A stretch of 64,000 bases of DNA from Hydrogenophilus sp. (GTDB lineage: Bacteria; Pseudomonadota; Gammaproteobacteria; Burkholderiales; Thiobacillaceae), in NCBI GenBank assembly GCA_020725265.1, contig DYFK01000005.1, positions 1-64,000 of the forward strand, in the 5' to 3' direction. The number at the start of each line of letters is the position of its first letter. Position 1 is the stretch's first letter. This document shows, in pieces, positions 52,985 through 55,323 of the stretch. A model generated the notes under the pieces. The model made no database searches and was not told where the DNA came from. It was given only the letters and a program-made list of their open reading frames with translations. A program made the translations under genes and the position numbers.

Positions 52985-54058
52985 TTGATCCTCGTCACCG
53001 GCGGCGCCGGCTTCATCGGCGCGAATTTCGTCCTGGACTGGCTGAACGCCCATCGGGAACCGGTCCTCAACCTGGACAAGCTGACCTACGCGGGCAACCT
53101 GGAAAACCTGGCCACGCTCGCCGGCGACGACCGCCATGTCTTCGTCCAGGGCGACATCGGCGACCGCGACCTGGTCGGCCGCCTGCTTGCCGGGCACCGG
53201 CCGCGCGCCATCATCAACTTCGCCGCCGAAAGCCACGTCGACCGCTCCATCCACGGCCCCGAGGATTTCATCCAGACCAACATCGTCGGCACCTTCCATC
53301 TGCTCGAGGAAGCGCGCGGCTACTGGATGAATCTCCCGGAAGCCGAAAAATCCGCCTTCCGCTTCCTGCACGTTTCCACCGACGAGGTCTACGGCTCGCT
53401 CGGCCCGGACGACGCGCCCTTCACCGAGCGGACGCCGTTCGCGCCGAACAGCCCCTACTCCGCTTCCAAGGCCTCGTCCGACCATCTGGTGCGCGCCTAT
53501 CACCACACCTACGGCCTGCCGACGCTGACCACCAACTGTTCCAACAACTACGGGCCCTACCAGTTTCCGGAAAAACTGATCCCGCTGATGATCCTCAACG
53601 CCACCCAGGGCAAGCCGCTGCCGATCTACGGTGACGGCATGAACGTGCGCGACTGGCTGTACGTGACCGACCACTGTTCGGCGATCCGCGCTGTCCTCGA
53701 AAACGGCCGGCTCGGCGAGACCTACAACGTCGGCGGCTGGAATGAAATGCCGAACATCGAGATCGTGAAGATCGTCTGCGCCCTGCTCGACGAACTGCGC
53801 CCCGACCCCGCCGGCCCGCATGAACGCCTGCTCACCTACGTCAAGGACCGCCCCGGCCACGATCGTCGCTACGCCATCGACGCCGGCAAGATCCACCGCG
53901 AATTGGGCTGGAAGCCCGCCGAGACCTTCGACACCGGCATCCGCAAGACCGTGGCCTGGTATCTGGCGCACATGGACTGGGTGGAAAACGTGGCGAGCGG
54001 CGCGTATCGGGAGTGGGTTTCGCGTCAATATGGCGCGAAAGAGGGAAGTGGGGAGTAG
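52985..54058 (+). CDS. rmlB: dTDP-glucose 4,6-dehydratase
   Basis: Second step of dTDP-L-rhamnose synthesis. The 357-residue SDR enzyme has [29 protein letters not shown] and the catalytic [10 protein letters not shown], with [22 protein letters not shown] and [11 protein letters not shown]. The start codon is TTG at 52985, supported by AGGAG six bases upstream and by homology beginning at this point. No ATG fits. The C-terminal residues KEGSGE are encoded in the repeat array that flanks the next gene. Confidence 0.96.
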
Positions 54059-54067
54059 GAAGTGGGA
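54041..54067. repeat. GGAAGTGGGGAGTAGG-type short array, rmlB side
   Basis: Purine-rich units GAGGGAAGTGG, GGAGTAGGAAGTGGG overlap the rmlB stop codon and the GTG start of the four-helix gene. The array is inverted relative to the one at 54416-54447. Confidence 0.65.
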
Positions 54068-54415
54068 AAGGCCCACGAACAGCTGGAGGCGTGGAAGGTT
54101 GGCATGCCCCTGGTAAAGACCATTTACGAGATCACGGCTGTTTCCCCCACTGAAGAACGTAACGGTTTGGCGCAGCAAACGCGGCGGGCGGCAGTCTCCA
54201 TTCCCAGCAACATCCCGGAGGGCGCCGCGCGCCAAGGCGCCAGGGAATACGCGCATTTCATCAGTATCGCGCGTGGCTCATTGGCGGAATTGGACACTCA
54301 ACTGCAAATCGCCAAACTGCTCGGCTATCTTGCACAGGACCACCCCGTCGCGCGGCTAGCCGTTCAGGTCGGCAAGCTGCTCACGGGATTGCACAGGAAA
54401 TGGACGACGCAATGA
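54062..54415 (+). CDS. Four-helix bundle protein (S23/IVP family), second copy
   Basis: A 117-residue paralogue of the protein at 1601-1978. Both share a [21 protein letters not shown] motif, [25 protein letters not shown], and an N-terminal [16 protein letters not shown] helix. Start GTG at 54062. The gene lies inside the rml operon between rmlB and rmlA, bracketed by inverted purine/pyrimidine arrays, and its stop overlaps the rmlA ATG (ATGA). Function unknown. Confidence 0.85.
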
Positions 54416-55323
54416 CCCCACTTCCCACTCCCCATTCCCTCCTACCCAGGAAAGGCATCATCCTGGCCGGCGGCTCCGGCACCCGCCTGTACCCGGCCAC
54501 GCTGGCGGTGTCCAAGCAGCTTCTGCCGATCTACGACAAGCCGATGATCTACCACCCGCTGACCACGCTGATGCTGGCCGGCATCCGCGATGTCCTGATC
54601 ATCTCGACACCGCAGGACACGCCGCGCTTCGAGCAGTTGCTGGGCGATGGCGGGCAGTGGGGCATGAGTCTCTCCTACGCGGTGCAGCCCAGCCCGGACG
54701 GGCTGGCGCAGGCCTTCATCATCGGCGCCGATTTCATTGGCGACGGCCCCTCTGCGCTGGTGCTTGGCGACAACATCTTCTACGGCCACGACATGGCCCA
54801 CGATCTGCATGCCGCCAACTCGCGCGCGACCGGCGCCACCGTGTTCGCCTACCGGGTACAGGATCCGGAACGCTATGGCGTGGTCGAGTTCGACGCCGAC
54901 CGACGCGCCATCAGCCTGGAGGAAAAGCCGGCCCGGCCGAAATCTCATTACGCCGTCACCGGCCTGTATTTCTACGACCGGCGCGTGGTCGACATCGCGC
55001 GCGCGCTCAAGCCCTCGGCGCGCGGCGAACTGGAGATCACCGACGTCAACCGCCAGTATCTGGACTGGGGCGAACTCGACGTCACCATCCTCGGTCGCGG
55101 CCATGCCTGGCTCGACACCGGCACCCACGCCTCGCTGCTGGAGGCTTCGATGTTCATCGAGACCATCGAGAAGCGACAGGGCCTGAAGATCGCCTGCCCG
55201 GAGGAAATCGCCTACCGGCAGGGCTACATCGACGCCGAACAGGTCGCCCGCCTGGCCGAACCGTTGAAGAAGAACGACTATGGCCAGTACCTGCTGGCCA
55301 TGCTCGGCGAACGGGTATTCTGA
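54412..55323 (+). CDS. rmlA: Glucose-1-phosphate thymidylyltransferase
   Basis: First step of dTDP-L-rhamnose synthesis. The 303-residue product has the nucleotidyltransferase signature [37 protein letters not shown], then [11 protein letters not shown] and [20 protein letters not shown]. The first ~12 residues ([12 protein letters not shown]) come from the short-repeat array and have no counterpart in normal RmlA. The ATG at 54412 overlaps the four-helix stop. An in-frame ATG at 54400 is an alternative; none lies closer to the conserved start. Confidence 0.95.
54416..54447. repeat. CCACTTCCCACTCCCC-type short array, rmlA side
   Basis: The pyrimidine-rich complement of the array at 54041-54067 (units CCCACTTCCCACTCCCCATTCC). 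It lies inside the rmlA frame and encodes residues [10 protein letters not shown] of RmlA. Confidence 0.65.

Follow-up and report, generated by a model that had tools for sequence, protein, structure and literature searches.

The cassette between rmlB and rmlA

The window, the whole 64,000-nt stretch of Hydrogenophilus sp. DNA that was analysed, carries a small gene of the four helix bundle family (S23p/IVP) between rmlB and rmlA, enclosed by two tandem heptamer arrays:

52985–54058, forward strand: rmlB (TIGR01181, 5.7e-151)
54039–54068, forward strand: left heptamer array, units GGGAAGT/GGGGAGT (period-7 score 13)
54062–54415, forward strand: four-helix gene (PF05635, 2.1e-29; TIGR02436, 1.3e-27)
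54412–55323, forward strand: rmlA with array-coded N-terminus (TIGR01207, 4.8e-156)
54417–54439, forward strand: right heptamer array, inverted relative to the left one (period-7 score 12)

The four-helix gene scored above the curated cut-off of both profiles (102.3 bits against 33.8 for PF05635 and 96.2 against 24 for TIGR02436), and its product appears homologous to the solved four-helix protein 2GSC (E 3.5e-30), described in the cited account as a homopentameric toroid (PMC4990558). On the coding strand the left array is G-rich and the right array C-rich, the latter with a degenerate tail to about position 54447. The period-7 scores of 13 and 12 exceeded the maxima of 11 and 10 in 2000 dinucleotide shuffles. 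The two arms matched each other in inverted orientation with a score of 15, the best of 659 other window tiles tried reaching 14. According to profile searches the PF05635 gene is the only gene of the cassette and the element contains no known transposase. The cassette is not located in a 23S rRNA gene, and the window had no Rfam match at gathering score. It has terminal inverted repeats, as do MITE or REP/RAYT-like elements, and an S23p ORF within inverted arms, as do 23S rRNA intervening sequences.

Two PF05635 genes were found in the source genome (G000, 96.65% complete). The other one belongs to cassette 1 at the guaB–guaA junction, which spans positions 1601–2021 and has arms of a GAGAGTC-type heptamer:

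1601–1978, reverse strand: four-helix gene of cassette 1 (start codon by reading)
1603–1632, reverse strand: array on the 3' side of the gene
1981–2021, reverse strand: array on the 5' side of the gene

The original prediction placed an inverted-array four-helix cassette in the rml operon, and both the profiles and the shuffles confirm its presence there. It also held that the architecture of cassette 1 recurs with a different repeat unit; the arms are indeed inverted and differ from those of cassette 1, but the unit is a degenerate heptamer of 7 nt and not one of 16 nt. As predicted, the left array covers the final rmlB codons with the TAG stop (54056–54058) as well as the GTG start of the four-helix gene (54062). 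Also the proposed coupling of rmlA to the stop of the four-helix gene agrees with the sequence, the ATG at 54412–54414 overlapping the TGA at 54413–54415 (ATGA). From this start, translation of the right array would give RmlA its first ~12 residues, as had been suggested, and no in-frame ATG, GTG or TTG is found between 54412 and the conserved RKGIILAGG; an alternative start is possible at the in-frame ATG at 54400, 12 nt upstream. As far as its sequence tells, the locus is an element of ~400 bp, consisting of a heptamer array, a four-helix (S23p/IVP) gene and the same kind of array inverted.

The RmlA start in cassette-bearing and cassette-free relatives

Of 41 genomes, 34 had rmlA matches, 37 in all, and 30 of these matches were taken as loci and read. 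In the 26 cassette-free loci the start lies 0–6 codons ahead of RKGIILAGG, and in three (L049, L050 and L055) the ATG is itself the first conserved codon of the motif. In 15 of the 26, rmlB immediately precedes rmlA with a gap of 2–26 nt; seven have an extra 660–960 nt between the two genes, and four have no rmlB match. In the filled loci of G000, G020 and G009 the start is 12, 15 and 11 codons before the motif, respectively, and together with one relic, in G008, the range is 11–15 codons. The comparison favours the view that the insertion replaced the native rmlA start, since all 26 empty loci have the shorter start.

A long RmlA N-terminus in a relative without a four-helix gene was named beforehand as the observation that would speak against this view. 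The one near-case was G008, where the gene is short by 120 nt, the left array is mostly lost and the PF05635 match is absent, and where MTAPRSPRPAP, coded through the right array, precedes RKG. Because remnants of the gene are still there, the locus represents a decayed cassette and not a counter-example, and the predicted cassette-derived RmlA start has outlived the four-helix gene.

In the RmlA tree the filled G020 and the empty G014 form a sister pair (100/100). Comparison of their rmlB and rmlA in 150-nt blocks gave 92–97% identity for the full blocks, apart from one with 85%, and the similarity breaks in the last short rmlB block, adjoining the cassette, where G020 is nearer to G000 (69%) than to G014 (52%). 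Grouping the three rml cassettes into one clade was not rejected (AU p 0.097), and with the rmlB tail common to G000 and G020 this means that the rml insertions may represent one event. The trees gave a hint of independent insertions at rmlB–rmlA (L002 with L005, 99/89 and 97/84), which is not claimed because of the same AU value, a second one of 0.087 and the shared rmlB tail.

Heptamer arrays flanking PF05635 genes

PF05635 matches were found in 18 of 61 relatives and in 52 of the 299 genomes of a phylum sample. The survey further included 80 named loci, which are the best 80 of 557 from a species-genome scan and therefore lean towards the query. No match was present among 50,697 phage records, and 17 were present among 72,556 plasmid records, 16 of these 17 being cyanobacterial by name. 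Removal of proteins at least 90% identical reduced the 151 loci with both flanks to 139. Related loci, and pairs of arrays belonging to a single hairpin, enter into many of the counts.

With a score cut of 10, a period-7 array was present on either side of the gene in 118 of the 139 non-redundant loci and on both sides in 89, while 50 loci lacked it on at least one side, 21 of them on both. Such arrays were found in 25 of 774 random control segments from cassette loci and in none of 52 single flanks of cassette-free rmlA. An inverted unit common to both arms (distance ≤1) was detected in 71 of the 89 two-sided loci, compared with 3.4% when arms were swapped between loci. These 71 loci include 55 distinct units, and in 66 of them the left unit has more G than C on the coding strand of the gene. 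The suggestion that the layout and not the sequence is conserved thus holds across many loci. Unit-matched hosts include Pseudomonadota, Acidobacteriota, Bacteroidota, Planctomycetota, Bacillota, Gemmatimonadota and Kiritimatiellota. Archaea are not claimed, because the arrays of L134 have no common unit (distance 3) and L107 and L124 have no arrays.

Direct order of the arms was recorded in 7 of the 89 loci. Eight loci were opened for checking, among them L113 and the period-8 locus L112, and in L071 and L091 the arms look truly direct. When other periods were tested in 129 loci (9 of 138 were left out for short flanks, and L016, L017 and L019 were positioned by hand because the profile missed them), two-sided arrays of period 8 were found in five, of period 9 in one, and of periods 10 and 11 in none. 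The cassettes with period 8 instead of 7 are L081, L112, L128, L151 and L162. In the compound cassettes L089, L112, L117, L139 and L144 a flank forms a small hairpin of tandem arrays. Both neighbours lie on the strand of the four-helix gene in 46 of 90 loci, by a crude count of longest open frames.

The array edges were analysed in 70 loci, left after 12 near-duplicates had been removed by hand. Of these loci, 64% have a stop codon no more than 14 nt beyond the left edge (control 23%), and 33% have an ATG no more than 14 nt beyond the right edge (control 16%). No consistent target-site duplication was found at these edges, shared words of at least 6 nt occurring in 7 of the 70 loci versus 3.5% when swapped. 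Stop codons are present inside 38 of the 71 left units and inside 15 of their reverse complements; shuffled letters already give 32, so that the stops in the left units follow from their G-rich, C-poor polarity. Left arrays carry stops closing the upstream frame in about half of the loci. Right arrays are mostly stop-free, and a sense frame of at least 100 aa is open across the entire right array in 61 of 94 loci.

The start of the downstream gene was surveyed in 17 loci, in 16 of which the motif was found. In four loci before ruvC (L011, L014, L020 and L024) RuvC starts at the four-helix stop or next to it, and its reading frame runs across the right array. One such N-terminus is MPSSSRLTPHPSR ahead of IRILGIDPG, and in L011 the RuvC profile match begins only from residue 16. 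The right array thus lies in frame as the predicted N-terminus of the downstream protein both at rmlB–rmlA and before ruvC. Nine loci at guaA, nrdR and dnaJ retain the native ATG, which is located between 2 nt inside and 8 nt outside the edge of the array. The names guaB, guaA, glyA, nrdR, ruvC, dnaK, dnaJ, purU and galE were given by profile in one locus each, and other loci at those sites were assigned through DNA similarity or the motif. The names manC, rmlC and the yebC-like gene before ruvC come from reading alone; for the last one the frame tried gave no profile match.

Units, protein lineages and homology borders

The pairwise unit test was made without L090, which is on the same contig as L023, and without L209. 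A unit was shared (distance ≤1) in 30 of the 31 protein pairs with at least 70% identity, many close pairs being orthologues at one site, in 35% of the pairs at 60–70% identity and in 4% at 40–50%. Cassettes at two different sites were also homologous: L008 and L012, at glyA–nrdR, align with the dnaK–dnaJ cassettes L018 (83–85%) and L104 (72–73%), L018 over its right half only because its contig begins within the gene. This homology ends at the arrays, and the unit is common to the four. L023 and L026, likewise at dnaK–dnaJ, have a unit differing from that of L018 and L104. The placement of L104 conflicts, either with the nrdR cassettes (93/92) or with the dnaJ ones (83/82).

The guaB–guaA cassette proteins form one clade (91/95), and some cassette sites, such as this one, look old and vertically inherited. 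The units here differ by species, in both arms of L001 as compared with both arms of L003 and L004, and therefore the two arms seem to change together. The dN/dS ratio was 0.05–0.13 in 9 of 12 pairs, two being saturated and one almost identical, which shows purifying selection on the four-helix protein.

Geneless arrays

Heptamer arrays without a four-helix gene are also present in the window:

51857–51933, strand not assigned: geneless hairpin at purU–galE, GGTAGCC-type heptamers inverted around a GC-palindrome spacer
55334–55366, forward strand: geneless heptamer array with the rml cassette unit, after rmlA and before an rmlC-like frame

The score of the array at 55334–55366 was reached in 1.5 per 1000 shuffles. 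An identical copy of the hairpin's spacer core, also accompanied by heptamers, is present at G000:C8:116598 (L171). By eye, a 1238-aa frame at 46183–49899 on the reverse strand resembles a repetitive secreted or surface protein.

Array scans covered 444 kb of G000, 200 kb of G020 and 200 kb of G022. Of the ten period-7 arrays of G000 four are cassette arms, and with 6, 5 and 6 arrays of periods 8, 10 and 11, respectively, there is hardly any excess of period 7 away from the cassettes. G020, which has three cassettes, contained 24 period-7 arrays and three of period 5 in its 200 kb, and none of period 8, 10, 11 or 13; 20 of the 24 are not part of the two cassettes covered. When the gua unit was set by hand, 16 of these 20 were at most one base from the genome's own cassette units, compared with 8.6% for random units. 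With computed units 19 of the 20 matched, random locus triples giving a mean of 3.0 and a maximum of 18 of 20. In G022, which is without PF05635, one hairpin (two arrays) was found. Geneless forms are thus abundant in G020 and not in G000.

The 308 kb around the cassettes included 56 geneless period-7 arrays, six of period 8 and one each of periods 10, 11 and 13. Thirty-two of the 56 match the local cassette unit, 3.1 being expected; the 56 include duplicates, as L061/L062 and L153/L218 are overlapping or nearly identical pairs, and L117 gives eight. Several geneless arrays are hairpins with a spacer of ~32 nt containing a GC palindrome.

Intervening sequences of the 23S rRNA gene

G024, of the same family as the source, has a PF05635 gene inside the 23S rRNA gene at L030 and L209 (RF02541 2499 bits at L030). 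The insertion site of L030 is presumably helix 45 of the 23S rRNA. The arms of this intervening sequence (IVS) are inverted, GGATTCAGGAATCAG... on the left and ...CTGATTCC on the right, the left arm scoring 9, just below the cut. L030 and L209 were also considered as a recent cassette duplication, which was rejected as they are two identical copies of the rRNA gene (the Rfam run covered L030 only). In the IVS of Coxiella, three GACAGAT heptamers precede the S23p start and an RNase III site is located at the first one, according to the cited account (PMC4990558). The S23p-bearing 23S IVSs seem to belong to the heptamer-armed element class.

Interpretation

The rml locus is probably a member of a class of minimal mobile elements that includes the S23p-bearing 23S IVSs. 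Among the features on which this reading builds, the layout, the locus-specific unit in both arms and the homology borders at the arrays (two sites) can be read directly from the alignments and arrays. Mobility and its mechanism we infer: the element would move or be copied into stop/start junctions, the four-helix protein acting on the folded arms and recruiting host enzymes. Copying between the inverted repeats would keep the arms alike, geneless hairpins would be derivatives yielded by the element, and RmlA would be made by termination-reinitiation.

An alternative is an RNA-processing element, the arms of which form an mRNA hairpin that splits the rmlB and rmlA messages or brings the stop next to the start. 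Arms of the same locus pair as RNA at a median of -37.4 kcal/mol versus -16.1 for swapped arms, RNase III is reported in the cited account to excise the Coxiella IVS with a cut at the first heptamer (PMC4990558), and the IVS of G024 has inverted heptamer arms. However, G·U wobble in the sense strand is not favoured (weighted 20.6 versus 30.3 for the A·C type in the 71 loci), and the pairing may therefore be a by-product of copied arms; RNA-level selection on pairing was dropped as the main reading for this lack of enrichment, and we consider RNA processing unlikely. A regulatory system, in which the four-helix protein binds the arrays sequence-specifically so that its own flanks are autoregulatory and the geneless arrays form its regulon, would agree with the co-divergence of unit and protein and with the presence of the local cassette's unit in geneless arrays. 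Nevertheless, co-inheritance also explains the correlation of unit and protein, and the cassette-wide homology at two sites, the 23S location and the loss of the gene with retention of the right array in G008 all fit an element better, which leaves regulation a rather improbable reading.

Reverse transcription was considered as well, as PF05635 is described as resembling Avd, the accessory protein of diversity-generating retroelements (DGRs), in the cited source (PMC10053308). The RVT_1 reverse transcriptase gave no match in G000 and G020, although drafts can miss genes, and the sole weak PF05635 match beside RVT_1, at L019, is armless; a retroelement dependent on reverse transcriptase and related to DGRs is thus very unlikely. 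Among the relatives, RVT_1 matches were found in 11 of the 18 PF05635 carriers and in 16 of the 43 non-carriers, and RVT_1 seems not to be needed for mobility. At L019 (G052:C28:15846-16136) the PF05635 match lies ~350 nt before the RVT_1 match, as in an Avd/DGR locus, and period-7 arms are absent (scores 6 and 3). That the arrays are ordinary simple-sequence heptamers, produced by polymerase slippage and near the gene by chance, is scarcely credible: heptamers are over-represented in many genomes according to the cited accounts (Mrazek 2007 as cited in PMC4679880; PMC4692102), but here they are two-sided, inverted and unit-matched with one gene family in 71 of the 139 loci, compared with none of the 52 control flanks.

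The mobile element class remains our preferred reading of the rml locus, and a wider one is put forward tentatively. Possibly a very widespread mobile element without a known recombinase has the four-helix (S23p) genes as its autonomous form. Its tandem-heptamer ends would drift freely but together on the two sides, it would donate N-termini to host proteins, and the S23p-bearing 23S IVSs and many unexplained heptamer arrays and hairpins of bacteria would be its special cases and non-autonomous offspring. Three things treated separately, the four helix bundle protein family, the 23S rRNA IVSs and the over-represented heptamer repeats, would thereby be linked. If this is true, the function of the four-helix family would be to bind and move heptamer arms, and hence testable, and a source of unexplained bacterial hairpins would be named. 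Likewise, a route would be documented by which insertions give proteins of core operons (rmlA, ruvC) new N-termini.

Comparison with known systems

The 23S IVS of Coxiella (helix 45) and the rml cassette are alike in the S23p/PF05635 gene, the pairing arms and the tandem heptamers. Unlike the IVS, the rml cassette sits between protein genes of an operon, and the start region of a host protein comes from one of its arms. The Avd protein of DGRs is similar to the rml four-helix protein by the literature (PMC10053308), while in G000 no RVT_1 partner was found.

Tandem arrays of 7 nt like the cassette arms are known from several genomes. In the cited accounts these are the G-rich heptamers of Xanthomonas and Nostoc, often inverted pairs in Xanthomonas (PMC4692102), the GGGACCG elements of Geobacter (PMC2700814) and the TAACTGA repeats (PMC4679880). 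In two Xanthomonas genomes the GGGAATC arrays include 70 and 75 inverted pairs (PMC4692102), and four copies of GGGACCG are present in 49 places of the Geobacter metallireducens genome (PMC2700814). Both units serve also as arm units of cassettes, GGGAATC in L066 and L076 and GGGACCG in L087 and L122. In contrast to the cassettes, none of these heptamers is tied to a four-helix gene in the cited accounts; the portion of PMC4692102 consulted states no general association of heptamer arrays with mobile elements, and the terms 'S23' and 'helix bundle' have no occurrences in its main text. In the open-licence PMC literature searched, no paper was recognised that connects four-helix genes as a group with inverted heptamer arms.

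A further likeness concerns systems composed of both gene-bearing and geneless forms. REP/RAYT and MITE systems include gene-bearing forms and geneless hairpin forms with common ends, and the cassettes resemble them in having gene-bearing forms and geneless hairpins sharing ends. Unlike in these systems, the cassettes are without a transposase, a consistent target duplication was not seen, and the ends are tandem heptamers, the sequence of which varies by lineage.
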